From Candidatus Cloacimonadota bacterium (GTDB lineage Bacteria; Cloacimonadota; Cloacimonadia; Cloacimonadales; Cloacimonadaceae): a stretch of 48,144 nt of DNA. Each line of letters begins with the position of its first letter. Position 1 is the stretch's first letter. The translations under genes and the position numbers were made by a program. Below are positions 23,976 to 38,185 of the stretch, piece by piece. The notes under the pieces are model-generated. The model saw only the letters and a program-made list of their open reading frames with translations. It did not search any database and was not told where the DNA came from. Location of the stretch: positions 1-48,144 of the forward strand of contig JAAYJN010000053.1 in assembly GCA_012522935.1 (NCBI GenBank). The letters run 5' to 3'.

Positions 23976-24057
23976 TGCTTTCCCATTAGCCACCCTTGTC
24001 TCTCCCTTGTCTTACCCTTGTCTTGACAAAGGAGAGACAAGGGTGGCTAATGGGCAA
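23976..24057 (-). repeat. 82-bp palindromic repeat, copy 2
   Basis: The most perfect copy: 23982-24005 is the exact inverted complement of 24031-24054 (24 bp) around a 25-base centre. Hexamers begin at 23993, 24004, 24015, 24027 and 24038, three as CCCTTG then two as CAAAGG/CAAGGG, with spacing 11, 11, 12, 11. It lies between the end of the AgmX-like gene and the start of priA. A flank shared with copy 1 follows at 24070-24092. Confidence 0.92.
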
Positions 24058-24132
24058 GGAGTATGTGAAGGTGAAATATGAGGCGGGGGTAAATGGCATA
24101 AAACCCAGCAAATCCCCTTTATGGCCATAAAC

Positions 24133-24165
24133 GAATACAGCTCCCTGTGTGAGGGAGCTGTATTC
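24133..24165 (-). terminator. Strong hairpin terminator of the TPR/ExbBD/AgmX operon
   Basis: A perfect 14-bp stem (24133-24146 with 24152-24165) encloses a 5-base loop, 27 bases past the stop codon of the AgmX-like gene. The T-run after it on the minus strand is short (CGTTTATGG), so the stem strength is the main argument. Confidence 0.75.
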
Positions 24166-24191: not shown

Positions 24192-25694
24192 CTAACTTAC
24201 CCTGATGGTAAATTTGTAGTTAAACGGACCGCGATGTTGTGGAATACTCCAGCCCATCACGATTCTTTTTATTTCTGCGAGGTAGTCTTGAGGTAGGTTT
24301 CCGGAGGTGGGGATCACTTCAGCCGTCTGTACCCTGCCATCTCTTCCCAGAATTCTGATATCCACAGTTCCGGTTGCTTTTTCGATTGCGGTGTACTTTC
24401 TGATTGGGTTTATCAGCTGGGATCTTCTGCCACCCACATAATTTTTGATGGATTGATATCCTGTTCTCTGCTCTTCAGGGGCAGAGGCAATGGCATTTTC
24501 TGTGACTGCAGGAGCCTGTGCTGAAATAGTTGCGATAAGCTGGCGTTCCGGACCAGTCTGGGCAATGGGTTTATTCAGTTGAGCAATTTGGGCTTTATTT
24601 ATATCTGCCACCACATCCACATTACCTGTGGGTCTTGTGGTGGTGCTACCTTTGCCACCAGGTGCGGTGGAAGCCCCAGCCAAGTCTGTGGGCTTGTAGT
24701 TTGATACTGCATGGGGATCAAAGGTAGAAGATATTCCTCCTGCAGTACCTCCAATGCCGCTTGGTTTGCCTCCTCCACCAGTTGTACCACTGCCTGATGC
24801 AGTGGCACCGGGGGTGGTTACCACAAACGAACGCGTTTCAGTGATTGCCACAGGGTTTCGGACTGTGGCACTGGGATCAAAAGAGCCAAAGCGGGAGGCA
24901 GTGCTGCCACCCGTGGTGGTGGTACCGGTGGGTGTGGTGGGTTTCTTTGGCTGTGTAGGTCTGGCAGGGGTGGTGGGCTTGGCTGCTGCAGCTGCAGCTT
25001 TGGCGGCTGCTTCGGCGGCAGCTTTGGCTGCGGCTTCTGCGGCGGCTTTGGCGGCTGCATCTTCCTCGATTTGGCTTTGCGGAGGCATTTGATCTCCGCG
25101 GGGCTCTATTCTTTGTCCCATGCTATAGCTTGCCATACCTGCATCCAGTGTATATTGTTTCATCAAGTCAGGCTTCAAAACCAAATCATAAACGACCAAT
25201 AAAGCCAAGGTGATAAAGAGGAAAACCAGGATGAGTGTGGTTCCAGCTTTTTCCTGACGTGAGCGTTCGGCACGGCGTGAATACTGTGCCACGATCCGTC
25301 TTTCCTCTTCTGTGAGAACATGTATGTATGGCTCTATAAACCGATAGTTAATCTGCCAATCAGGATTGAGGGTGACGGTGCCGGTCATATTGTTTTGTAG
25401 GGTCAGCTGGTTTCCTTTCAATAAGCCACTGGCAGTCAGTTGCTCTTTTGTGACAGATTTGCCATTCTGTTTACATTCCACCTGTGCCTTGGGTATCAGG
25501 TTCATTACAAAGTTGTTGTTCTTATTCGAGATCAACTTGATTTTATCGGGGAAAGAGGGGTCAAGAATCTGCCACAGCAGATGTTTATTGGAACCCAGAT
25601 ACCAGTTTTTTTTGAAAACACCAGAGCCAGATTTGATGTAATCCAACACTTTGCCCTTATAGATCAGTTCCATGTTTAATTGTGTCTTTGCCAT
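24192..25694 (-). CDS. AgmX/TonB-like energy transducer with central membrane helix
   Basis: The protein has 500 residues. A ~145-residue N-terminal soluble domain (unrecognised, presumably cytoplasmic) is followed by one membrane helix (about 151-173), then an Ala/Lys repeat (213-239). A Pro/Thr/Gly-rich linker runs to about 380. A C-terminal TonB-like domain follows, with KYTAIEKATGTVDIRILGRDG and IKRIVMGWSIPQ. This layout matches AgmX/GltJ-type proteins of the myxobacterial gliding and spore-coat machines. With ExbB- and ExbD-like genes just upstream it should couple inner-membrane proton flow to a periplasmic or outer-membrane task. It is the last gene of the operon. The start follows GGGAGG closely. 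Confidence 0.83.
   Translation of the reverse strand: MAKTQLNMELIYKGKVLDYIKSGSGVFKKNWYLGSNKHLLWQILDPSFPDKIKLISNKNNNFVMNLIPKAQVECKQNGKSVTKEQLTASGLLKGNQLTLQNNMTGTVTLNPDWQINYRFIEPYIHVLTEEERRIVAQYSRRAERSRQEKAGTTLILVFLFITLALLVVYDLVLKPDLMKQYTLDAGMASYSMGQRIEPRGDQMPPQSQIEEDAAAKAAAEAAAKAAAEAAAKAAAAAAKPTTPARPTQPKKPTTPTGTTTTGGSTASRFGSFDPSATVRNPVAITETRSFVVTTPGATASGSGTTGGGGKPSGIGGTAGGISSTFDPHAVSNYKPTDLAGASTAPGGKGSTTTRPTGNVDVVADINKAQIAQLNKPIAQTGPERQLIATISAQAPAVTENAIASAPEEQRTGYQSIKNYVGGRRSQLINPIRKYTAIEKATGTVDIRILGRDGRVQTAEVIPTSGNLPQDYLAEIKRIVMGWSIPQHRGPFNYKFTIRVS
24978..25058 (-). repeat. In-frame 24-bp tandem repeat encoding AAAKAAAE
   Basis: About three imperfect 24-base units encode an Ala/Lys/Glu helix-forming stretch (residues 213-239) directly after the membrane-proximal region of the AgmX-like protein. 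Third positions vary, so the repeat is kept at protein level rather than being a recent slippage product. Confidence 0.8.
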
Positions 25695-25703
25695 GTCACC
25701 TCC

Positions 25704-26252
25704 CTATTGGCTGTTTGCTGTTTTCATATTATTTAGCCATTGCGTATCCAGCAGGGTGCTAAAATATATGTGTTTAAATTTGGCGCCTGTGCCCACCGCC
25801 ACGATTTCGGTAATCACCTGCGTGGGGATATTATCATTCGCCTGTATCATGAGGCAGGCTTCAGATTGATCATCCACCTTCAAAATCTGATCGGATTGAT
25901 AGCTCAAAAAGGTATAAAGCTCTTCTCGTTTTTTGGGGTCTGAGAGCAGGTCTTCAGGTTTGCCAAATACGATATTATCCAAACCGACATAGATGATATC
26001 AGGATATACCTTTACGATGGTGGTGCCCATATAGTCTTCCAATTCATCCACAGTCATTGTGCTGGGGAAAGTCATGTTTTCGGGCACTGTGACACGCTGC
26101 GCTTCCATCGATACGTTTTTGATGAGAAAGACCAAAAGAATGGTCAATACATCAAGCAGGGATGTGATAGACAGGGATGCCACTTCATCGGCTTTGCGAG
26201 TGGTTCGTCTTACTTCTTTTCCAGATGATTTTGCTGATTCTATTAGTCTCAT
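25704..26252 (-). CDS. exbD: ExbD/TolR-like protein (membrane Asp retained)
   Basis: This 182-residue protein has a basic N-terminus, one membrane helix with the ExbD pattern LSITSLLDVLTILLVFLIKN (Asp34 in the place of the proton-carrying Asp25 of E. coli ExbD), and a periplasmic domain of about 130 residues. With ExbB-like proteins, such subunits form the proton-driven motor that energises TonB/TolA-type transducers. GGAG lies 6 bases before the ATG. It is 9 bases from the AgmX-like gene and 11 bases from the second ExbD paralogue. Confidence 0.86.
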   Translation of the reverse strand: MRLIESAKSSGKEVRRTTRKADEVASLSITSLLDVLTILLVFLIKNVSMEAQRVTVPENMTFPSTMTVDELEDYMGTTIVKVYPDIIYVGLDNIVFGKPEDLLSDPKKREELYTFLSYQSDQILKVDDQSEACLMIQANDNIPTQVITEIVAVGTGAKFKHIYFSTLLDTQWLNNMKTANSQ

Positions 26253-26263
26253 ATCTATCTCCG

Positions 26264-26782
26264 TTAGTAGTAACGAACCTCGACAGGCCTGTATAACACA
26301 TTCACAAACTGATTGTCTTTACAAAGGTCGATGGTTTTGATGAGTGGCCCATATAAAACATCCGGATAGGGGCTAACGCTGATTTCAGTTTGCTCTGGGC
26401 TTTCTTTGCGAATCTCTTTCAATTCTGCATCCAGCGTTACAAAATCGTAATTACCATTAACAAAGCGGATGTTAATTCTTTCTTTGCCTTGCTGGCGGAT
26501 CTGAAATCCACGAAAGAGTTCTCGATCCGGAGCATCCGTGTTCATGATAAATAATTCGATCTTCTTTTCCTCGGCTTTTTCGCCTCCGGCACCAAGGCCA
26601 TCACCTCCTCCATCGCCGGTAGGTGCGAAATTTAAAGCAACCGAAGCAATCTGAGTCATCACCAACATGAATAACAAAAAAGGCACGATGGTGAGAAACA
26701 GGTTCATCAGCGGCACGAGGTCCTGTTCTTTGGGACCCCCCGCCAATCTTCGGTTCCTTCCGGCAGAAGGACGGTATGCCAT
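26264..26782 (-). CDS. ExbD/TolR-like paralogue lacking the membrane Asp
   Basis: This 172-residue protein has the ExbD layout: short basic N-terminus, one membrane helix and a periplasmic domain. The helix reads LVPLMNLFLTIVPFLLFML, so Asn27 stands where ExbD has its essential Asp. A Gly-rich linker (GDGGGDGLGAGG) precedes the folded domain. In myxobacterial motors two ExbD-like proteins pair in one complex, so this may be a partner subunit that does not carry protons. It starts 4 bases after the exbB stop, with GAGG 8 bases upstream. Confidence 0.82.
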   Translation of the reverse strand: MAYRPSAGRNRRLAGGPKEQDLVPLMNLFLTIVPFLLFMLVMTQIASVALNFAPTGDGGGDGLGAGGEKAEEKKIELFIMNTDAPDRELFRGFQIRQQGKERINIRFVNGNYDFVTLDAELKEIRKESPEQTEISVSPYPDVLYGPLIKTIDLCKDNQFVNVLYRPVEVRYY

Positions 26783-26786
26783 ATTC

Positions 26787-27539
26787 TTAACCTCTATTTA
26801 CGTAGCTAAGATAGTTAATTATTTTCACAGTATGTTCGTCGATATCAGCGAGAATCTTCTGAGCACGGCCGTAAAGACCACCATGGATAAGAGTGAGCGG
26901 GATGGCGGCTACCAATCCCATTGCAGTGGTTCCAATGGCTTTGGAGATACCGGCGGTAAGCAATTGGTTCTTTTGGCTTTCAGGAGCGTTTGCCAGGCTT
27001 TCAAAAGCTTCCAGAAGACCCCAAATCGTTCCCAAGAGACCCAGGTAAGTACAGATCTGAGCCAATGTATTGAACCAAGAGAGATTGGCATCAATCTTAA
27101 ATACGGTCTGCAACACTGCTTCTTCGAAACCGTTTTGCACTGCCCTGTCCAGCTCTTCGCCCTTCTTGTTGGCTTTGCGAGTATCAATATAAATACGAAT
27201 TCCACTCCAGAAGATATATCCAAGGGTAGTTCCCTTAAAACTTTCTGCCACCTTGGCTGCCTCATCCAGCTGATCATTTTTGAGATACCCTTTGAGCTTC
27301 AGATAAAACTTCTGTGCATCGATTTTCTCGCGTTGATACAGCTGAATATAGCGCACGATGCCATAGACAAGACCAATGATAAAAGTAAGAATGATAGCAT
27401 ATCCCCAGCCTCCGCTATCGTGAAGGATTTTGCCGGGTGTGATTGGGGTAGCTTTCACAGGGCTTGCGTCGGACTGAGCCAGCAGAGTGGCACAGAACAG
27501 GAGAGCAATCACTACCAGTATGATTTGTTTTGTTTTCAT
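26787..27539 (-). CDS. exbB: ExbB/TolQ/MotA-family proton channel protein
   Basis: A 250-residue inner-membrane protein. A signal-like first helix (MKTKQIILVVIALLFCATLLAQ) is followed by a membrane segment near residues 45-65. A long cytoplasmic part follows, then the paired C-terminal helices with TYLGLLGTIWGLLEAF and AIGTTAMGLVAAIPLTL, the signature of ExbB/TolQ. The start is the ATG in the ATGA overlap with the preceding gene, with GAGGAG 5 bases upstream; an ATG six codons earlier is less likely. It forms the stator pentamer around the ExbD-type dimers encoded next. Confidence 0.9.
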   Translation of the reverse strand: MKTKQIILVVIALLFCATLLAQSDASPVKATPITPGKILHDSGGWGYAIILTFIIGLVYGIVRYIQLYQREKIDAQKFYLKLKGYLKNDQLDEAAKVAESFKGTTLGYIFWSGIRIYIDTRKANKKGEELDRAVQNGFEEAVLQTVFKIDANLSWFNTLAQICTYLGLLGTIWGLLEAFESLANAPESQKNQLLTAGISKAIGTTAMGLVAAIPLTLIHGGLYGRAQKILADIDEHTVKIINYLSYVNRG

Positions 27540-27847
27540 TTTGACTCCTCTAGCCATTTATTTCTTTGTTGTTGCCAATTATCAAGTTGTAATTTGCTTA
27601 CCTTCTGGATCAGCTCCAGATAGTATGTTGGGAAGTTGTATCTGCCAACTTCGTTGTAAGTATCAGCTTTATCTTTGAAGGTGGTGATATCAGGTTGTAA
27701 AGCTTTGAGGGTGAGCTCAAAAACTTCATGATCCACCATTTCCGCCACTCCCTCAAAGCCACTGGGAGTGACGTCGGAGGTGACGGTTTGTCCCAGTAAA
27801 AGGGTTGCCGCCACCAAGGCAATTGCAGTTACAATTATCTTTTTCAT
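27536..27847 (-). CDS. Small exported protein of unknown function
   Basis: A 103-residue protein with a signal peptide (MKKIIVTAIALVAATLLLGQ) and a ~80-residue mature part with helix-like segments (LQPDITTFKDKADTYNEVG, LIQKVSKLQLDNWQQQRNKWLEESK). No family recognised. It starts 5 bases after the stop of the giant TPR gene, with AAGGAG 8 bases upstream, and overlaps the exbB start. Position suggests a periplasmic partner of the TPR protein or of the motor. Confidence 0.72.
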   Translation of the reverse strand: MKKIIVTAIALVAATLLLGQTVTSDVTPSGFEGVAEMVDHEVFELTLKALQPDITTFKDKADTYNEVGRYNFPTYYLELIQKVSKLQLDNWQQQRNKWLEESK

Positions 27848-27852
27848 TGGTC

Positions 27853-30800
27853 TCACTCCTTTGCGTATTGTTCAATCTTGATTTCAGCCAATATGCCACG
27901 GTATGCAGATTGGTTTTGGACTTCTATGCGCAGATGGTTTGAGCCTTTGCGCAAAGCGTCCAACGGCAGCTCCAGATAGCTGGGGTATATGTGGAAGGGA
28001 TCCGAATCATAATCCATCATCACCTCTGTTGCCAACATACTGCCATTCAAATATACAGTGGCGGTATCAGGGGCGATAAATTCAACTATCGCAGACACCG
28101 GATTCTCACTGATATTAAATTCTGTTTCAAAGGCAACGTCGTAATAGGGAGCCTCAGCAGTTTCTCTGGGCCAAATGGGTTGGGCTTGATGATCTTCCAT
28201 ACCAGAATACATCTCCGGGGTAATACCGAATTCACTGGACATCCGCGCAGGAGCTTGGATTTCAGCCTGGGTATCAGGATCGGTAACTATCGCCCTCCAA
28301 GAAGGACTGCTGCTAAAACGGATGGTTTCACGGATTCTGGTCTGTTCCAAAAGGGCTTCATCATAGTATGCCTGCAAAGTGGCACGCACGGGGATGCTTT
28401 CCTCAAGAGGATTGTTAAACAAAACACGGATGGTATTTTCTGTTTCATCCCATTCCACGCCTGTAAGGTGATAGCCATAGCGTTCTGTGGTGGGTTGCCT
28501 CTCGTCCAGAGTGTCTATCACAAAGCCGGAAAGGACAGCTGATTCATCATTTACAAATGCTTCCACTCCTTCGGAATGTATCACTTGCAGATATACGAAG
28601 CTGGGAGCTATTTTGGATTCAAGCTTAAGCTCAGCTTGCAATTTGGTGGCAGGCGGAATCTGCAATTCTCCCATGGTGAGGCCCTTGGCAGTGGTTACGG
28701 TGCGCACTGTGGGGCTGATAGGTGAGCCATCAGCGTCATCATACACCTTGGAAAACTGCCAGGCAGAGCCCAGGGCATATTCCTTTTTCTGGAAGCTGGA
28801 CATAATGCCGAATTCTGTGAGTTTATTCACCGCATTAGTGGTATTGTCATCCACATATCCGGGTAAGTGGAATCCGGAATACAGGGTGTTGTAGACCATC
28901 TTGGCTTCATCTTCAAATGGATAGATATAGCCATAGTTTACCTGTCCCCAGATATTGGCCAATACCTCGGGATCATCCTTGTAAGGTTTTACGTCGTTAG
29001 AGATTTCGAAATAGCGATTTATCTGTGTATTCACCACTTCGATGGCGTATTCATAGATCTGAGCTTCCACGCTCAAGGCTTTCACGACCCTGTCTGTGGT
29101 CAGCATTGCCAGATTGGTGGGCGTGAGCAGGCGCTCTACCTTTCTGATCTCAGCATTTACAGCATCTGCAAATGCGGGCAACCTTCTCAGTTTTCCACCC
29201 ATCAAATCTTGAACAAATCTGGTTTTCTCCGTAACGTAAACATGTTGGTTTGGTGTATTCTTGAAATAAGTGCCGTTTTCAATGGCTGCCAAGCTGCTAT
29301 CAAAGCCATTCAGGAAGGTAAGCAGGGCTTGGGTTTCTCGGTATTCCGTTTCTGCAATGGCAAAGGAACTGTGTTGCTCTGCAGTGTCCAGAGGCAGACC
29401 TTCCCGCAGATATTTGGCTTCCTCAGCCTTAAATTCATCACGCTTTTGGAAGGCAAGCTGCCATTCTTTATTCAGATATGCCTCGTTGTATTGATCAATG
29501 ATGGCAGAAAGACGTCCCACAGCCACTCCCTGGTAGAGATCATACTGGGTATTATCTTTCATGAACAGTTTTTTGGCATATTCCTCATAATGCTGGGTAT
29601 CGCCCCGGTTATAATAGCCCACGGCAATGGTGCGCAGCACTTCTGTGACATCCGGATGATTGGGATAACGCTGTACGAATGTCTCCAACACCTCCAGATG
29701 CGTGGTTGAGCTTTGATCTTCGGCATAGATGTAATAAGCCTGCATATAGATAACTTCGGCAGTGGCTTCTCCAGAATTGATCAGCCCTTTGCGCACCTCT
29801 TCAGAAAGAGCTATATAATCCTCAGCTGCCTGCATCTTGGTGGCAGGATTGCCTGCCCTTCTTTCCAGGTCTTCGATACGCAGGGTGAAGGTCTGATAGC
29901 TGCCGGGATATTGGTCCATAAATTCATTTCTGATGGATGTGGCACGGGTGGGATTGTGCATCAGGCTTTCAGCCACGTTCCAGCTCTTGTAATAATACAG
30001 ATATATGTTGTCGAGGTCGTTTGGTCTTTGCTTGGATGCCAAGTACATATAGGTGGCAATCAAGAGCTCATATTCCCCGGCACGCTCATATTCCTGTGCT
30101 TCCAACAGCTTGTAGTTGACGTGTTCCTCAGGATATCTCTCATACGGATATTCCAGCGCCATGCGTCCAAAATTAAGCGCTGCCGTAGCGTGATCACCTT
30201 CTTCCAGCGCAGCGTTGTAGCTGTTTTGGATTTGCAGCTGGATCATTTGGTTGGCATCGGCTATTTTGGCAGGGTCTAAAGTATAGTCGAGGGCTTGTCT
30301 GGCATAGTCTTCAGCTATATTAAAGCGCTCATAAGGCGGAAGGTTTGTATTGTTCTCTGCGATAAATGACAGGTTGTAGTATATATCATACTTCATGGGA
30401 TTGGTAAGAGTGGGATCGTTTTCCAGGATGTCAAGATATCTGTTCAGTGCAACCTGATGACGATTTTGGTTAAACTCGCGATGAGCCAAATCCAGATTCA
30501 ACAGCCTGGCTTCTCTGATATGAAGCTCTGTGCCTTGATCATTGAGCACCTTGACAAACCTGAGGGCTGCCTTTTCATAAAAGTCAAAGGCAACATCCTT
30601 TTGTGCATCGCTGGCATCCTTGATCATCGCGTCATAACGCTTTTCGGCATATCCAAAAGCCAGCTCTTCATTGGCATAGGCATTCTGGGATGGGTAATGC
30701 TGATTGAACGCCAAGAGAGCATTATATACACGCAGATAGGAATCAGCATCAGGATGCCTGTCCGCTATATTGCCCATGAAGATCACTCTTTCATTTTCGT

Positions 30801-33800
30801 GGTTTTGAGCCCATAGGGAATATTCCACGTCATAGGGCATTGGCGTGGCATCATACATCTTGAGATGCTCCGTGTATGCCTCATATACTGCAGGATCAAA
30901 GAGTTCCCGATAGGCAGCATACTTTTGGCTATGATCCACAAATGCCTGCAAAGCTTCATCATTTAGCTGTGTTCTCACGCCTTCATAATGCACCACTTGC
31001 ACCTGGCGATAGGCATTGCGGAGAGACGCCAGCTGTGCGGCTATTTCAGGGTCTGCAATATCTTTGTCTTTGATATTCTGTCTATACCACACGCTTTGCG
31101 GTGAATAGTTCCTCACCATAAAGTCATACCAGTTTCGCCGCACCTGGTCAAGGTTTTCCCCTTCACGCAACACGGTGTCAGGAGAGTGGTAAAGCGCAAG
31201 GATGGTATCCACAAGTGCGGGATTCACCAATGCATTGGGCATCTTTTCCAGTCTCAACTCCAAGAAGTCTATGGACTGGCGGGTAAGCTGCATCTCTTTC
31301 TTATTCTCTGCTGCTTTATCAAGAATGTAATTGAGGGTTTTCTCGTCTTTCACATCTCCAAACACAGACGCCAATACATCCAAACCGCGGGATTGTGATT
31401 CATAATTCGAGCCGTCCACCGCTACCAGACAGTATGCAATCTGGTCCAAAGAGTTGGTCCTATAGTCATCAGCAGAATCTTGAGGCTGGATGATTCCTGC
31501 ATTGGCAGCACTCAGGATATTGGCAAAATCCACCAATGCGGCATTCAGAGAGTTATCATCCGAAATGTTCATATTCACAAACCCGCGCTGGAACATGGCT
31601 TCCCAACGGTAGGGACTGTCCGGCTGATTTGCAAGTGAGGTATAGAGATCATTGGCACGCGTATACCATTCTATTGGTCTTTCCGCATCAATACCAATCA
31701 GGAAATAGAGATTGGCAAGGCGCAATACCGTATCATCGCTCAAGGGAGAATTGGGATAGTTTTCCAAGATGTAGTTGTAATTGTCAATGGCCTCTTCAAA
31801 GTCACTTTCATAATAGCGCAGCTGAGGGCCTCTGGGGCGATCAGGATTGGCGTCGTACCATCTGGCTATTCTGGCATCCTTATCCTCACGAATAATCTCA
31901 CTGCTCAGATAGGCTATATTATATAAAGCTTGATCCTTCAAATAAAAATCAGGATTGGCATCCATGGCCATTCGGTAATACTTGAGGGCTTCTCTGTAGT
32001 TGCCCAGGTCCACTGCCCACTGCAATTCTGCTATGTTATAATAGATATCAGCAGAGCCGATCAGATAGTTATACTGACCGGAATACTCCGGATCCCCATC
32101 AAGGGGAACATTCTCCAGCGGGGTTTCCAGAGCCTTGAAATCAGGATATCTGAGGGCAAAACCTTTATAATCTGCCAAGAGGGCTCTCTTTTGGCTCAAA
32201 AGCTCGTTGTATCTGGCTGTCTTTTCATCCAGGCTCAGGGAGGTATCTGCCAAGCGTTCCTGCTCTTGGTAGTTCAACCTGCGATAACGGTTTTGAAGCT
32301 CGAGAAATTCAAGAGTGGTGGACATCATGCCCAGCTGATTACCCAAGAAGTAGGATCTTTCACCCTCTCGCAATTCATCCAAATGGTTTTGCGCCAATTG
32401 CTTCATTTGGTTTGGATATCTCAGCATTATACTGGCAACAATCTGTCTTTCGATGAGGGGGAGAGTCTCGTCCAGATCACGTTTTTCTTGCACTGTAGCC
32501 AGGTATTCGTTATAAAACATGTTGAAGAACTCTTCTTCTGCGTCAGTTTTGTGTTTATGGTACTCCAGATAGCGCTGCCTACGAAGCTCCAAGTCTTGCT
32601 TTTTCTCTTGATATCCCCTCAGCTCGGCGATGAGATCAAGATCCGTTTGATTCCGATATTCAGGAGTGGCCATCACTCCCTGGTATACTTCTATTATATC
32701 TTCATAAAGCATGATATTGTGTTCAATATCCAGCAAGCGCTTCATCTCCATGTCGCTATACCTGCTGCCAGTGATGCTGTCTTCATCACGCCTAAGCACA
32801 AGGTACTTCATCTCAAAGATATCATCGATAACGTTAATAGTTTTAGCCAATCTATCTTGATATCCACGCAAGGTCAATAAGATTTCACCAATTCTCTCAT
32901 ATTCTTCGAAAAACTCATATTCTTTCAGAGGCGTATTCGGGTCTACAAGTGTCTGGATGGTTATCTGGTTATTATTGAGATACTTGTACAAGAAATCCTT
33001 ATATTCATCCAAGACCTTAATCTCTTCTTGTTCAATCTGAGATATGGCATCATAGATTACCAGCCCGGGAAAGCTTCTGGCCTCCTGATACAGTGTGTGC
33101 AGGTCTTCCTTGACGCTATCTATGGTTCCGGCATGAGCCTGATAGCCTTCCATGGTGGGATTTTTGAAATAGGAATCAAGGTCCATATTCTCCACACGGC
33201 TGATAATGGCGGCTTCTCTGGGTAGGAACTGAGTCTCCAGCCAATTTTTATTAATCTGGTAGTTTCTCAGATACTCTTCTACCTCAGCGGATTCCCCTCT
33301 GGAGGACATCAAATCTGCCCACAAATATAGATAAGCTGAATAGTATTTATCATACAACTGGATGTCATAATTATCTCCGAATTCTGAATCATCCAAGATG
33401 TCTTTCAAAAAGAGCTTCGTAGCCTCTTGATCGGGTCCCAGCATATTCGCAACTGCCCGCTGATAGAGGAGCAATTGTGCCATTTGACGTGAATCCTTAC
33501 TGAGCTCCGGATGCTTTGTAAGCTCCATAAAATAAGTCAACGCTGAGTTTGCGTCGCCAGCCACTGCATAAAAATGACCCACTAAAAAGAGGACATCCCA
33601 CTCGTCAAGTTGGATGAGATTGGCAAGATGTTTTTCGTATTCTTGCACTGCCTTTGCCTTGTCGGTCTTTATCAAAACAGGAAGTTCGTCTTTGAGAAAA
33701 TCCACAGCTTCCATCACTTGTGGGTTTCGATAAGTTGACTTTTTTGCCGGATCGGGGCCATAATAAGGCGCAGCTGCCAGCAAACCCAACACCGAAAACG

Positions 33801-33840
33801 TAAAAACGATCAGAAGAATAAATTTAATATATCTTTTCAT
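27853..33840 (-). CDS. Giant exported tetratricopeptide-repeat protein
   Basis: A protein of 1995 residues counted from the ATG at 33840; a GTG four codons upstream is an alternative, with AAGGA before it. A signal peptide (MKRYIKFILLIVFTFSVLGLLAAAP) is followed by long helical repeats of TPR type, for example YYRMAMDANPDFYLKDQALY, YILENYPNSPLSDDTVLRLA and VLETFVQRYPNHPDVTEVL. Coiled-coil-like stretches lie around residues 400-560. The last ~200 residues are beta-rich with a galactose-binding-like ending (VYLNGSMLATE, LRKGSNHLRIEVQNQ). It is probably a periplasmic or outer-membrane scaffold. Its size and neighbours recall AgmK/GltI of Myxococcus gliding. No catalytic motif was seen. Confidence 0.85.
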   Translation of the reverse strand: MKRYIKFILLIVFTFSVLGLLAAAPYYGPDPAKKSTYRNPQVMEAVDFLKDELPVLIKTDKAKAVQEYEKHLANLIQLDEWDVLFLVGHFYAVAGDANSALTYFMELTKHPELSKDSRQMAQLLLYQRAVANMLGPDQEATKLFLKDILDDSEFGDNYDIQLYDKYYSAYLYLWADLMSSRGESAEVEEYLRNYQINKNWLETQFLPREAAIISRVENMDLDSYFKNPTMEGYQAHAGTIDSVKEDLHTLYQEARSFPGLVIYDAISQIEQEEIKVLDEYKDFLYKYLNNNQITIQTLVDPNTPLKEYEFFEEYERIGEILLTLRGYQDRLAKTINVIDDIFEMKYLVLRRDEDSITGSRYSDMEMKRLLDIEHNIMLYEDIIEVYQGVMATPEYRNQTDLDLIAELRGYQEKKQDLELRRQRYLEYHKHKTDAEEEFFNMFYNEYLATVQEKRDLDETLPLIERQIVASIMLRYPNQMKQLAQNHLDELREGERSYFLGNQLGMMSTTLEFLELQNRYRRLNYQEQERLADTSLSLDEKTARYNELLSQKRALLADYKGFALRYPDFKALETPLENVPLDGDPEYSGQYNYLIGSADIYYNIAELQWAVDLGNYREALKYYRMAMDANPDFYLKDQALYNIAYLSSEIIREDKDARIARWYDANPDRPRGPQLRYYESDFEEAIDNYNYILENYPNSPLSDDTVLRLANLYFLIGIDAERPIEWYTRANDLYTSLANQPDSPYRWEAMFQRGFVNMNISDDNSLNAALVDFANILSAANAGIIQPQDSADDYRTNSLDQIAYCLVAVDGSNYESQSRGLDVLASVFGDVKDEKTLNYILDKAAENKKEMQLTRQSIDFLELRLEKMPNALVNPALVDTILALYHSPDTVLREGENLDQVRRNWYDFMVRNYSPQSVWYRQNIKDKDIADPEIAAQLASLRNAYRQVQVVHYEGVRTQLNDEALQAFVDHSQKYAAYRELFDPAVYEAYTEHLKMYDATPMPYDVEYSLWAQNHENERVIFMGNIADRHPDADSYLRVYNALLAFNQHYPSQNAYANEELAFGYAEKRYDAMIKDASDAQKDVAFDFYEKAALRFVKVLNDQGTELHIREARLLNLDLAHREFNQNRHQVALNRYLDILENDPTLTNPMKYDIYYNLSFIAENNTNLPPYERFNIAEDYARQALDYTLDPAKIADANQMIQLQIQNSYNAALEEGDHATAALNFGRMALEYPYERYPEEHVNYKLLEAQEYERAGEYELLIATYMYLASKQRPNDLDNIYLYYYKSWNVAESLMHNPTRATSIRNEFMDQYPGSYQTFTLRIEDLERRAGNPATKMQAAEDYIALSEEVRKGLINSGEATAEVIYMQAYYIYAEDQSSTTHLEVLETFVQRYPNHPDVTEVLRTIAVGYYNRGDTQHYEEYAKKLFMKDNTQYDLYQGVAVGRLSAIIDQYNEAYLNKEWQLAFQKRDEFKAEEAKYLREGLPLDTAEQHSSFAIAETEYRETQALLTFLNGFDSSLAAIENGTYFKNTPNQHVYVTEKTRFVQDLMGGKLRRLPAFADAVNAEIRKVERLLTPTNLAMLTTDRVVKALSVEAQIYEYAIEVVNTQINRYFEISNDVKPYKDDPEVLANIWGQVNYGYIYPFEDEAKMVYNTLYSGFHLPGYVDDNTTNAVNKLTEFGIMSSFQKKEYALGSAWQFSKVYDDADGSPISPTVRTVTTAKGLTMGELQIPPATKLQAELKLESKIAPSFVYLQVIHSEGVEAFVNDESAVLSGFVIDTLDERQPTTERYGYHLTGVEWDETENTIRVLFNNPLEESIPVRATLQAYYDEALLEQTRIRETIRFSSSPSWRAIVTDPDTQAEIQAPARMSSEFGITPEMYSGMEDHQAQPIWPRETAEAPYYDVAFETEFNISENPVSAIVEFIAPDTATVYLNGSMLATEVMMDYDSDPFHIYPSYLELPLDALRKGSNHLRIEVQNQSAYRGILAEIKIEQYAKE

Positions 33841-33902
33841 AACCCCGCTCACTTTTCCTTGTTAACAATATATAAGCTCTACATATCAAGGACACATCCC
33901 AG

Positions 33903-33924
33903 ATGCGGAGTTTTGGCTCCGCAT
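33903..33924. terminator. Short hairpin between the outer-membrane and TPR genes
   Basis: ATGCGGAG (33903-33910) pairs with CTCCGCAT (33917-33924) around a 6-base loop. It lies 83 bases beyond the stop at 34007 on the minus strand, without a T-run. It could be an attenuator or an mRNA-processing stem rather than a full terminator, since the genes on both sides seem related. Confidence 0.45.
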
Positions 33925-34006
33925 CCAGAATGTAGCCTTCTGTATTCATGGGAAGTATGATTTCCTTGAAGTGCTTTGAATAATAAGCACGTTGTAAAAC
34001 TGCATT

Positions 34007-35104
34007 TTATCTATTTTGTTGCTCTTCCAGCCACTTGCGCAAATCAAGAAGTGCCTTGTGTGCTTTCTCGCGTTCTTGGCGCAGCAGTGTGAGCTCTTCC
34101 ATCAATTCTTTGATCTCGGGTGAAAGCTGGTCATACTTACTACCATCAAGAACCAAGTCTGAATCGGGCAAAGTGCTGAAATCCAAACTGCCATCAGCAA
34201 TCTCGGTACCGGGGACCCCTGGTTTGGGCCGTGTTGTATCGTCCACTGCCACAAGGGCGTCATCGGTCAGGATCAAGTCATCAGCCTGTGCCAGTTCTCT
34301 GAGGTCAGGCATGCGTTTGGAGGTGGCATATTTGTCAAAGAGATAGGATACTCCGAGGGCCAAACGCAGGTTATCTTCATAACCATTGGTTTTATAGAGG
34401 TCTTCCAAGGCCTGGCCGGCAAACTTGATTGCAAACTTGCCAATATCGTATTTCACGCCTGCCTGGAAGTCATGCCCGCTATATTCAGCCTGAAAATGCA
34501 GATTGCGCAAGGGGGAGAAATTGACGGAATAGAAGATGCCATTGAAAACCCTGGAACGCGGCACTTGACCGGTAAAGCGGTTGGAGCCTGCGCCCAAACT
34601 GAAAATCCAATTTATCCCGCCTATAACCACCTGTTTGGAGGCGACAATATAGGGAGACCAGTATTCGTAGTCTGTCTTATCCGGGTGGTTGGCATAGCTC
34701 CACTCGTTAGGATCGGTATGGTCCTGCGCACGGTGACGATTCACCGGTGAAAGCATATTGTCCAAACCAACGGATACCTGTGGGATCTTAAGAGTTTCTT
34801 CGATCAATTTCAGTTTGGCGTTAAAATAATAAACCTTATCACCGCCAAAAAAGCCCAGCTCAGCCTTGTCAAACAACCCAACCGAAAGCATTCCGTATGG
34901 GTAGAAGCCTTTACTGCGGTCTGGATCAGCCGTACTTGGTTTTGCTACATCTCGATAATAACCCACGAGCAATATCTCCCCAGCCTTGTGGGGCAGCACA
35001 TAGGCGTCTGGTGTGCGCAACATTCCCAGAGTTTGGAACGGAGCGGCACTCAACGATCCAAATAGAACGCTCAGCACAAATACACTTATTAATACTTTTT
35101 TCAT
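34007..35104 (-). CDS. Exported protein, probable outer-membrane barrel with C-terminal coiled coil
   Basis: A 365-residue protein. The start is ATG 35104, directly after a strong GGAGGGA site; a GTG four codons upstream would lie inside that site. A signal peptide (MKKVLISVFVLSVLFGSLSA) is followed by about 240 residues of alternating beta strands (AELGFFGGDKVYYFNAKLKL, GGINWIFSLGAGSNRFTG, LHFQAEYSGHDFQAGVKYDIG) suggesting a barrel. A Pro/Asp-rich linker follows, and the last ~40 residues form a coiled coil (LMEELTLLRQEREKAHKALL). It probably heads the TPR/ExbBD/AgmX transcript. An outer-membrane anchor for that machine is inferred. Confidence 0.78.
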   Translation of the reverse strand: MKKVLISVFVLSVLFGSLSAAPFQTLGMLRTPDAYVLPHKAGEILLVGYYRDVAKPSTADPDRSKGFYPYGMLSVGLFDKAELGFFGGDKVYYFNAKLKLIEETLKIPQVSVGLDNMLSPVNRHRAQDHTDPNEWSYANHPDKTDYEYWSPYIVASKQVVIGGINWIFSLGAGSNRFTGQVPRSRVFNGIFYSVNFSPLRNLHFQAEYSGHDFQAGVKYDIGKFAIKFAGQALEDLYKTNGYEDNLRLALGVSYLFDKYATSKRMPDLRELAQADDLILTDDALVAVDDTTRPKPGVPGTEIADGSLDFSTLPDSDLVLDGSKYDQLSPEIKELMEELTLLRQEREKAHKALLDLRKWLEEQQNR

Positions 35105-35153
35105 ACTTCCCTCCACCTTTCGGTGTTATTTTAAATTTTCGTGTGTGGATTAC

Positions 35154-35580: not shown

Positions 35581-35635
35581 TTGTTTTGCAAATATCATTC
35601 GGGTAGCCCCAAAATACTGAGCCTTCCGTCAGCCC

Positions 35636-35717
35636 TTGCCCTTTAGCCACCCTTGTCTCTCCTTTGCCGAGACAAGGGAGAGACAAGGGTGAGACAAGGG
35701 TGGTTAATAAGGAAGGA
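35636..35717 (+). repeat. 82-bp palindromic repeat, copy 3
   Basis: Perfect 15-bp arms lie at 35648-35662 and 35677-35691, with a further half-unit on the right. Hexamers begin at 35650, 35661, 35673, 35684 and 35695, two in CCCTTG orientation (the second is CCTTTG) then three as CAAGGG. Spacing is 11, 12, 11, 11. It lies between the convergent yraN and GWxTD genes. Confidence 0.9.
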
Positions 35718-35757: not shown

Positions 35758-37095
35758 TCAATTCCTCAGTTTTGAGGTATCAAAATCCTCGCCCAGATAG
35801 CGCTGATAATTTGCCGTGGTGCTTTCCATATCATCGTTATAAACCCATATCAATTGGTAGTTTCCGTTCATCTGCACATCCAAAAAAAGATACACGGCAT
35901 TCACCTTGCCACGGTATTTCCAGATTTGATAATCTTTGCTCACAAAGCGGTAATCGTCTGTTGTGCTGCCCTTTTCCAATTCATCAGGTTTGCCGTTGCG
36001 GATATAGATCCTGCCCAAATCGGTTTTCCAGCCATCTTTGAAATACTTGAAATTGCGGTTGGTAAAAGAAATCCTCTCTTCCATCTCGCCTAAAAACTGG
36101 GCTGCATCCATTCCCTGCTGGGCTGCCAGACGCCTATAAATACTTGATACATAACGCTGTTTGGTCAATTGATCATAGCGTTGCCAATCCTTGGGCATTT
36201 GCACCGTGTTGAAATATCTCAACATCTGCAATTCGTCTTCCACATCCGGTATCAAACTGTAGATGGTTTCGTGCAGCTCCGTGATAAAAAACTCAAATTC
36301 CCTATCCTGGAATGTCTCATCTGTCTGCAAGGTGAGCGTGCCCCTGTATGTGCCAGCGCTCAGATCATCCAAAGGGATTCTGAGGGTGATGCCTTCTGCG
36401 GCACTATGGGGGGTGAAATCAATGTACTCATCCTGCACCATGAGGCTGTCTTTTTCCAGATACAAGACCAGAAGTTGGGATTGCCCAAGGGATTGCGGCG
36501 GCAGGTATGTCTCCAAATACAGATACATATTCTCATAAGACACCTTGTCGAAGATCAACGAAGGCTCAGTTTTATACAGGGTTCCCTTTCTGTGAAACTT
36601 GCTGAGATAGGCGCTGCTATCCGCTTTTACCACAGAGCAGAGCTGGATATCGCTCAAGAGGTCTTCCGATAGAAGCGGGCTGGCATCCAGTTCCCAGTTA
36701 AAACTGCGTCCGGAATTAACGTCACGTGCATGAAAGACAAGCGTTCCCGGCTCTTTATCCAATAGAAAGCTAAGCCTGTTGAGGTGATATTTGTCTGAGG
36801 TGGCATCCAGTTTGTTTGTAATGCCCACATTGTCTGCCAATTCCCTGAGGGGTATCAGGGAATCCGCATGCGCGAGGCTAACCGTAACGATCAATTCTGC
36901 AAAATAGCCTCCCTGATGAGCCTCAAAAAAGAGGCTGCGATAAGGAATCTGATAATCGATATGCATGATGGTATTGCCTTCGGTATCCCGAAAGCGGCTC
37001 TGAGTGATGTGCATATTCAGTTTTTCTGATGCCATCAAGCCTAAACTGAAAGCCAAAACCATCAGTGTGAGTGTAAGATACTTAATATTCTTCAT
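35758..37095 (-). CDS. Exported GWxTD-domain protein
   Basis: A 445-residue protein with a signal peptide (MKNIKYLTLTLMVLAFSLGLMA). A long beta-rich region (to about 280) is followed by a helical part, then the GWxTD motif: GWKTDLGRIYIRNGKPDEL starts at residue 355, with YQIWKYRG and VYLFLDVQ after it. GWxTD domains are widespread in exported proteins of Bacteroidota-related phyla and have no established biochemical role. It overlaps the paralogue before it by 14 bp and is the last gene after dnaE. It has no obvious terminator except repeat copy 3. Confidence 0.86.
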   Translation of the reverse strand: MKNIKYLTLTLMVLAFSLGLMASEKLNMHITQSRFRDTEGNTIMHIDYQIPYRSLFFEAHQGGYFAELIVTVSLAHADSLIPLRELADNVGITNKLDATSDKYHLNRLSFLLDKEPGTLVFHARDVNSGRSFNWELDASPLLSEDLLSDIQLCSVVKADSSAYLSKFHRKGTLYKTEPSLIFDKVSYENMYLYLETYLPPQSLGQSQLLVLYLEKDSLMVQDEYIDFTPHSAAEGITLRIPLDDLSAGTYRGTLTLQTDETFQDREFEFFITELHETIYSLIPDVEDELQMLRYFNTVQMPKDWQRYDQLTKQRYVSSIYRRLAAQQGMDAAQFLGEMEERISFTNRNFKYFKDGWKTDLGRIYIRNGKPDELEKGSTTDDYRFVSKDYQIWKYRGKVNAVYLFLDVQMNGNYQLIWVYNDDMESTTANYQRYLGEDFDTSKLRN

Positions 37096-38185
37096 CTTTA
37101 TTCCTCAATATATATTGGCCAAATCCGCCTAAATCACTAAATATGAACTCCAGATTTTCCTTGTAATACCTCCACACAAACGTGGGATATTCATCCAAGG
37201 GGAGGATGTTTTCATACACCTCATCGGGTTCACCATATTTGATATATATTCTACCTCTATCGGATGCCCAACCCTTCAATCTTTTATGCAGGCTAAACAT
37301 TTCATCCGCCTTCAATACCCGGTAATAGAATAGTTCCCGCGCTTCATTGCGGGCTGTTCCGGGGCTGGGATCGTGGCTGTTCCAAAAGAGCTCGATCCCC
37401 TCTGCCAGCTTGTTGGAAGAGAGGTTGGAGAGGCTTTGCCACTCGTTTTGGGTGGCAAGATAACGCAGTTGTTTCCGCTGGTCTTCGAGGCTATAGCGCT
37501 GGTTGTATGAAAACCAGGGGCTATACATGAAGGGTTCCATCTGATAATAGATATTGGATTCCCAAAAGGTGATTTTTACGCTTTCGGGGATGCCCTGATC
37601 GCTCAATAACGATATTTGTAAAGGGCTCTGGGGGTTGGGGATAGACCAGCGATAATCCGGCGTGGATATCACCACGCTATCGGCAGCTATGGTAAAGCTT
37701 TGTAAGATTTCACAGCTTTGCAGGTGCCCTGCATCCAGATCCAGGCTTTGGGGCAAAAACCGGATATCCTCACGCTGTGCCAAAAGGTAGGGCTGACCTA
37801 TCGGGGTGTGTTCTTGAATATGAAAGCTCTTTTTCTGGGTATGCACGTCTCCCAGTGCCAAATTGCGCAATTGCAAGATGGTCTCATACTTGCCTGCATC
37901 CAGTTTGGCGGATAAATGCACGGGTATGGCAGTATCTTCCAGCCAGCTGCTGCGAGGTAAATTGAGCATTTGCCCCAGGCTGGCAACCAGCTTTTTGCGC
38001 GAATTGCGGATCTCCATGGAAAGCTGGTAATTCACGCTAAGGGCGTCTTTGGGAAAATTGAGGCTGTTATAGGGCACCAACACCCAAAAATCCGTAGCCT
38101 CCTCATAGTGCTCAAAGATCACTTCCTGAGCCCATGTTGCCATGGTGATCAAGACCAGCAGGGTGATGCTAATCCACTTTTTCAT
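37082..38185 (-). CDS. Exported GWxTD-domain protein (paralogue)
   Basis: This 367-residue protein has a signal peptide (MKKWISITLLVLITMATWA). The GWxTD box starts at residue 305 and reads GWASDRGRIYIKYGEPDEV, so the Thr is Ser here. FVWRYYKENLEFIFSDLGGFGQYIL follows. The N-terminal ~230 residues are beta-rich. It overlaps the end of dnaE by 17 bp and the second GWxTD gene by 14 bp, so the three are translated as a unit. Function unknown. Confidence 0.85.
   Translation of the reverse strand: MKKWISITLLVLITMATWAQEVIFEHYEEATDFWVLVPYNSLNFPKDALSVNYQLSMEIRNSRKKLVASLGQMLNLPRSSWLEDTAIPVHLSAKLDAGKYETILQLRNLALGDVHTQKKSFHIQEHTPIGQPYLLAQREDIRFLPQSLDLDAGHLQSCEILQSFTIAADSVVISTPDYRWSIPNPQSPLQISLLSDQGIPESVKITFWESNIYYQMEPFMYSPWFSYNQRYSLEDQRKQLRYLATQNEWQSLSNLSSNKLAEGIELFWNSHDPSPGTARNEARELFYYRVLKADEMFSLHKRLKGWASDRGRIYIKYGEPDEVYENILPLDEYPTFVWRYYKENLEFIFSDLGGFGQYILRNKDEEY

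Follow-up and report, generated by a model that had tools for sequence, protein, structure and literature searches.

A seven-gene envelope operon of Candidatus Cloacimonadota, probably a distant cousin of the myxobacterial gliding motor and probably not a standard gliding engine

The window analyzed here is a stretch of 48,144 nucleotides (contig JAAYJN010000053.1 of assembly GCA_012522935.1) from a member of Candidatus Cloacimonadota, the phylum to which its named relatives likewise belong. It carries an operon of seven tightly packed open reading frames (ORFs) on the minus strand (24192-35116) that encode, from 5′ to 3′, an outer-membrane protein, a giant tetratricopeptide repeat (TPR) protein, a small exported protein, ExbB, two ExbD proteins (ExbD1 and ExbD2), and a force transducer (Table 1). 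This gene order was first proposed in a sequence-only reading of the window, and all of its ORFs proved real, with Pfam matches to MotA_ExbB, to two ExbD proteins, and, weakly, to TPRs. The perfect hairpin at which the operon was said to end is also present, as a 14-bp inverted repeat (24133-24165) that was not scored as a T-tailed terminator. The operon is probably a distant cousin of the myxobacterial gliding motor that is conserved across several phyla, and probably not a standard gliding engine.

Table 1. Genes, domains, and repeat of the operon, in coordinates of the window
Feature	Coordinates	Strand	Basis
Outer-membrane protein (signal peptide, putative β-barrel, C-terminal charged coiled coil)	34007..35116	-	ORF; likely start ATG 35104; Pfam YjbH marginal
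Giant periplasmic TPR protein, 1999 aa	27853..33852	-	ORF; weak TPR Pfam matches; two-gene fusion
First β-rich domain near C-terminus of TPR protein	28249..28794	-	AlphaFold2; PDB fold matches
C-terminal β-sandwich of TPR protein, sugar-binding-like fold (resemblance of fold only)	27865..28140	-	AlphaFold2 and fold search
Small exported protein, 106 aa	27536..27856	-	ORF; directly upstream of exbB
ExbB/TolQ/AglR-type motor subunit	26787..27557	-	PF01618 MotA_ExbB 1e-22
ExbD1	26264..26782	-	PF02472 4e-9; Asn27 at pore Asp site, codon 26702-26704
ExbD2	25704..26252	-	PF02472 1.6e-5; pore Asp34 kept, codon 26151-26153
GltG-like force transducer, 500 aa (FHA-like domain, transmembrane helix, Gly/Ala/Pro-rich region, AgmX/TonB-like C-terminus)	24192..25694	-	Family by relatives and fold
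Degenerate FHA-like cytoplasmic domain of transducer, residues 5-120	25335..25682	-	AlphaFold2 and PDB fold matches
Transmembrane helix of transducer, residues ~150-173	25176..25247	-	Helix 146-173 in model; hydrophobic stretch in alignment
AgmX/PglI (TonB-like) C-terminal domain of transducer, residues ~415-500	24195..24452	-	NF033768 in homologues
Perfect 14-bp inverted repeat, 5-nt loop, operon end	24133-24146/24152-24165		26 bp past transducer stop

In a phylogenetic tree of ExbB proteins, the operon copies of all phyla form one group (support 100/98), outside of which fall both the Tol/Ton paralogues of the same genome and TolQ and ExbB of E. coli. The Cloacimonadota operon copies group together (100/99), while the deeper joins between phyla are weakly supported and involve some long branches; the ExbB of a Bdellovibrionota locus (L144) lies inside the operon group, within which support is weak. 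The two ExbD proteins differ at the pore site, where ExbD1 carries Asn in all 34 Cloacimonadota loci and all 20 loci from other phyla (54/54), and ExbD2 carries Asp in 55 of 55. At the Bdellovibrionota locus, ExbD1 and ExbD2 alike carry Asp. The corresponding motif is S-M-S-D in each of the two ExbDs encoded at the Ton locus of the window's genome, as judged by eye and unaligned.

In Myxococcus, the D28N substitution in AglQ abolishes proton conductance and paralyses the machine. From family and motif, with AglQ unaligned here, D28 of AglQ and Asn27 of ExbD1 apparently occupy the same site. AglQ and AglS both carry Asp, and whether they form hetero- or homodimers with AglR was stated to be unknown in a 2022 review (PMC9389320). 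The operon departs from this pattern of Asp in both ExbD-type subunits through the Asn of ExbD1, and no Asn-type ExbD turned up in a search of the literature. From the Asn at the pore site of ExbD1, we infer that the working motor would be an ExbD1-ExbD2 heterodimer with one protonatable site, on ExbD2. A broader proposal, to which we give slightly less than an even chance, is that the operons of Cloacimonadota, Fibrobacterota, Fermentibacterota, KSB1, and Calditrichota encode an ancient class of 5:2-type motor in which this heterodimer is obligate, the single protonatable site makes proton flow and force asymmetric, and the Asn of ExbD1 was selected and is not a product of decay. With Asn fixed in one partner, in every one of these loci and across several phyla, a one-site heterodimer motor can be tested directly.

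The transducer is GltG (PglI)-like rather than GltJ/AgmX, the identity initially suggested for it. The model of the AgmX/PglI C-terminus (NF033768) matches 15 of 20 transducer homologues (best 6e-18), and the GltG model NF033760 is matched over ~200-648 of its 650 positions (3e-23 to 7e-25) by the transducers of a second-copy Cloacimonadota locus (L063) and of loci from KSB1 and Calditrichota (L139 and L142). The matched span covers the FHA-like domain, the transmembrane helix, and the C-terminus, and the window transducer aligns with these relatives. All of these matches miss the GltG equivalog cut-off (650 bits), the best of the operon family reaching ~95 bits and the window copy being unreported. 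A sequence search of the PDB with the transducer returned weak TonB matches alone (E 0.007 and worse). The N-terminal domain was modeled by AlphaFold2, as a monomer, with a pLDDT of 90.5, and FHA domains make up nearly all of the model's top PDB neighbors, led by 5a8i (E 6.5e-4, probability 1.0). Canonical FHA domains bind phosphothreonine through a motif comprising Gly-Arg and Ser; in the transducers these positions are altered: most have Gly-Ser where Gly-Arg is expected, and all have a Pro close to where the Ser normally lies. Since the fold is kept and the phosphothreonine-binding residues are changed, binding of phosphopeptides by this domain appears doubtful. One genome (G117) holds two operons, and the divergent one, L063, is the sole Cloacimonadota copy tested that strongly matches the GltG model; it may represent an older or a transferred form.

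The giant TPR protein is a single polypeptide (1943-2140 aa) throughout the window's family, whose 17 loci include the window itself, and in one f3 locus; in most other Cloacimonadota families it is split into adjacent genes of ~670 and ~1300-1550 aa. As a lineage-specific fusion of two genes (~670 and ~1450 aa), it is not an equivalent of GltI/AgmK, to which it had been likened. Its C-terminal 370 aa were modeled by AlphaFold2, again as a monomer, as two β-rich domains (mean pLDDT 90.8) that match the jelly rolls of carbohydrate-binding modules and carbohydrate-active proteins, as well as BcsB, with E values of 1e-7 to 1e-4, TM-scores of ~0.2, and mixed domain order. Given these low TM-scores and the mixed order, sugar binding by the modeled C-terminus is no more than a lead; the sequence of the C-terminal β-sandwich is conserved across the motor-bearing loci. 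The small exported protein, which has no match in Pfam or NCBIfam and is always encoded immediately upstream of exbB, is GltF-like by size and position alone. The outer-membrane protein barely exceeds the cut-off of the Pfam YjbH family (24.1 vs 24 bits), with YjbH matches in 8 of 18 homologues, and its C-terminal coiled coil is conserved, being found also in the counterparts from KSB1, Fermentibacteria, and Fibrobacterota.

The distribution of the operon was followed in metagenome-assembled genomes of varying completeness, in which absence from any single genome is weak evidence. ExbD1 is present in 81 of 125 Cloacimonadota genomes (51 of the 71 good ones) and the TPR protein in 86 of 125. 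The order from the TPR gene through the small protein, ExbB, ExbD1, and ExbD2 to the transducer is unbroken in all 34 motor-bearing Cloacimonadota loci read, and this recurrence is far beyond chance. The outer-membrane protein is usually encoded first in these loci, and the usual neighbors are dnaE-GWxTD-yraN upstream and priA downstream. In several genomes that lack the operon, GWxTD(-yraN) and priA are contiguous (e.g., L184, L185, L187, L188, and L192), and these empty dnaE-GWxTD-yraN-priA sites indicate that the operon has been gained or lost as one unit. Because its order is kept and the empty sites are clean, the operon is a self-contained unit whose place in the chromosome is conserved. 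One or two genes, which we take to be of GWxTD-domain type, adjoin the operon in the window (35758-38185); almost every Cloacimonadota locus has them, whether or not it carries the operon.

The core gene order recurs, with some variation, in KSB1, Calditrichota, Fermentibacterota, and Fibrobacterota, and one Bdellovibrionota genome (L144) holds a related form. Profile and gene-order comparisons thus do not reduce the transducer to an ordinary TonB protein in an unshared arrangement, since its relatives match the AgmX and GltG models and the order extends through the 34 loci and into other phyla. A transfer from Deltaproteobacteria to Fibrobacter has been proposed (Luciano et al., 2011; PMC3169522). 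The presence of the operon in several phyla that group separately in the ExbB tree suggests that it was instead inherited by vertical descent, which would root a Glt-like machine far back in the part of the tree that holds Fibrobacterota, Cloacimonadota, and KSB1, and not among recent deltaproteobacterial transfers.

The Fibrobacterota loci (among L126-L150) carry a STAS-domain gene between exbD1 and exbD2 (e.g., L127, 11167-11493), whose product is a possible motor regulator. Those with enough sequence have a Wzc-like gene after the transducer gene, preceded by a Wza-like gene where this was checked. These neighbors fit a machine for capsule or exopolysaccharide, in which the motor would move or organize a glycan exported by Wza-Wzc, in the manner of the Agl-Nfs machine with Exo. 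The precedent is the Myxococcus Nfs/AglRQS spore-coat machine (PMC3858216), which shares the motor logic of the operon, uses the GltG paralogue NfsG, and has glycan as its cargo; the resemblance of the outer-membrane protein to YjbH and the sugar-binding-like fold of the TPR C-terminus point the same way. On the other side, no Wza-type exporter was found in the window's genome or in the five others of its genus, where glycan could be exported by another route, a Wza-type gene is linked to the operon in Fibrobacterota alone, and over the 125 genomes the operon and Wza show no association (odds ratio 0.83, P 0.69, uncorrected for phylogeny). Polysaccharide export, suggested by the Fibrobacterota neighbors, was accordingly set aside as a general function, and we regard the polysaccharide machine as rather unlikely.

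The closest comparison is with the AglRQS-Glt machine of Myxococcus xanthus, encoded in clusters M1, G1, and G2 (Luciano et al., 2011; PMC3169522). Both systems have one ExbB-type and two ExbD-type genes, a GltG-type transducer with FHA domain, transmembrane helix, and TonB-like C-terminus, TPR proteins, an outer-membrane protein, and a small exported protein, which in Myxococcus is encoded next to gltG. They differ in that all genes of the present system lie in a single operon, ExbD1 has Asn in place of Asp, GltI-type (4132 aa) and GltJ-type proteins are missing, and the giant TPR protein is a fusion with a β-sandwich C-terminus. The likeness to AglRQS plus GltI/GltJ drawn by the sequence-only reading therefore holds for the Agl/Glt-like content, through the profile matches of the transducer's relatives, and fails for the GltI and GltJ identities. 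A core complex of gltC-D-E-G and aglRQS described from non-gliding bacteria, including one member of the Fibrobacteres, is similar as a compact single-locus set of TPR, GltG, and AglRQS genes (Luciano et al., 2011).

Surface motility, also raised at the outset, is not supported. A true gliding engine, one that drives cells across a surface in the way of Myxococcus AglRQS-Glt, would account for the shared motor composition and GltG-type transducer and for an order (TPR, TPR, small protein, GltG) that mirrors gltD-gltE-gltF-gltG. However, MglA and MglB are essentially absent from Cloacimonadota: no MglB-type protein (PF03259) scored above the cut-off in any of 125 genomes, in a search that detected the positive controls, and a single MglA-sized match to the Arf GTPase family (PF00025; L167), a candidate, occurs in one of them and not in the window's genome, most Arf matches being ORFs of IF-2 size, as judged by length. 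The window transducer has no GltJ-type match, and Asn27 of ExbD1 resembles the paralysing D28N change at what is presumed to be the same site. The Bacteroidota gliding motor works without MglA, and regulators other than MglA/MglB could exist. The literature searched for motility in Cloacimonadota does no more than mention genes for flagella and pili in genomes from digesters. Because MglA and MglB are essentially absent from the phylum, gliding of the myxobacterial style is unlikely, and a gliding engine in general seems to us quite improbable.

A counterpart of the operon may have been described under another name in Fibrobacter succinogenes, where FSU_2396-FSU_2403 encode, in order, OmpA-type, TPR, TPR, ExbB, ExbD, ExbD, and TonB-type proteins (PMC6851124, PMC4619616). 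The cluster is upregulated on cellulose, and the OmpA and TPR proteins encoded by its first two genes belong to a complex at the surface that also contains cellulases and fibroslime proteins (PMC6851124, PMC4619616). It differs from the present operon in its OmpA-type first gene, and its published reading is TonB uptake together with a cellulose-binding complex. The proposal of TonB-type cellodextrin uptake by its authors, together with the ExbB/ExbD and TonB_C relationships, favors an ordinary TonB or Tol-Pal system that has some unusual accessory genes and serves nutrient uptake or outer-membrane constriction. Yet a TonB-dependent receptor, TolB, and Pal are all absent from the operon, its ExbBs form their own group in the tree, and the FHA-like domain and AgmX-type tip are not features of TonB. 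The same genome, moreover, holds ExbB/ExbD-family motors of both kinds elsewhere: a Ton locus (L071) beside a TonB-dependent receptor, with two Asp-bearing ExbDs and a transducer that lacks the FHA-like domain, and a separate TolQR locus (L070). These loci already fill the Ton and Tol roles, and we consider the ordinary-system explanation very improbable. The present comparison suggests instead that the cellulose-induced cluster of F. succinogenes be reread as a force machine.

The explanation we favor, and hold to be reasonably likely, is that the operon encodes a proton motive force-driven, envelope-spanning force machine of the general Agl-Glt/Nfs type, which moves, exposes, or assembles a surface structure linked to the outer membrane and is distinct from MglA-controlled gliding. 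ExbB and the ExbD1/ExbD2 pair would form the inner-membrane motor. The GltG-like transducer would contact ExbB through its transmembrane helix, with the FHA-like domain in the cytoplasm, a flexible arm spanning the peptidoglycan, and the AgmX/TonB-like tip engaging periplasmic or outer-membrane partners. Force could then travel by way of the giant TPR protein, with its C-terminal β-sandwiches, and the small exported protein to the outer-membrane protein, and the surface structure would be moved, exposed, or assembled. The coiled coil of the outer-membrane protein would reach into the periplasm. In Myxococcus, AglR binds GltG, and AglRQS also drives Nfs, which moves glycan on spores (PMC3858216); both precedents favor the force-machine reading.

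Several observations weigh against this force machine. The many Cloacimonadota genomes without the operon indicate that its function is not a universal one of the envelope. The window transducer falls under the reporting limit of both the GltG and the AgmX models, its membership coming through relatives and fold, and the barrel of the outer-membrane protein is putative. Kinship with AglR, AglQ, AglS, GltD, and GltE does not come from direct comparison, the genome set containing no Myxococcus, and orthology with FSU_2396-2403, which is likely, rests on published gene order and names. The surface cargo, too, is one that we infer.

Motorless genomes provide a natural experiment on the parts that depend on the motor. 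Three motorless loci (L066, L067, and L191, from G082, G087, and G089) keep the outer-membrane protein, two TPR genes, and the small protein, with ExbB and ExbD absent at the locus, and G088 counts as a fourth motorless genome by its lack of ExbD1. The transducers of the motorless loci are 255-258 aa long and consist of a signal peptide and the C-terminal domain alone, so that loss of the motor is linked in the sequences to loss of the membrane part of the transducer. In L066, L067, and L191 the TPR protein ends in TPRs and not in a β domain. It seems, then, that the C-terminal tip of the transducer has a role on the outer-membrane side in loci with no motor as well. A second type of locus (L062, 2102-4933; L064, 308-5098) has four exported genes before the TPR gene, among them genes for a WxLIP/Fn3-like protein and a ~920-aa protein with carboxypeptidase-regulatory-like domains; L064 has no ExbB/ExbD.

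The region in the window is flanked by a near-perfect palindromic repeat of ~85 bp, located in the gap between the operon and priA (23978-24058) and in that between yraN and the GWxTD genes (35634-35717). The repeat is dispersed in the genome; of 135 candidate places ~40 were scored, and most of these are 85-93% identical. The only Y1_Tnp (RAYT-like) gene of the genome encodes 157 aa and lies 612 bp from one copy, and together the repeat and this gene look like a REP/RAYT system.

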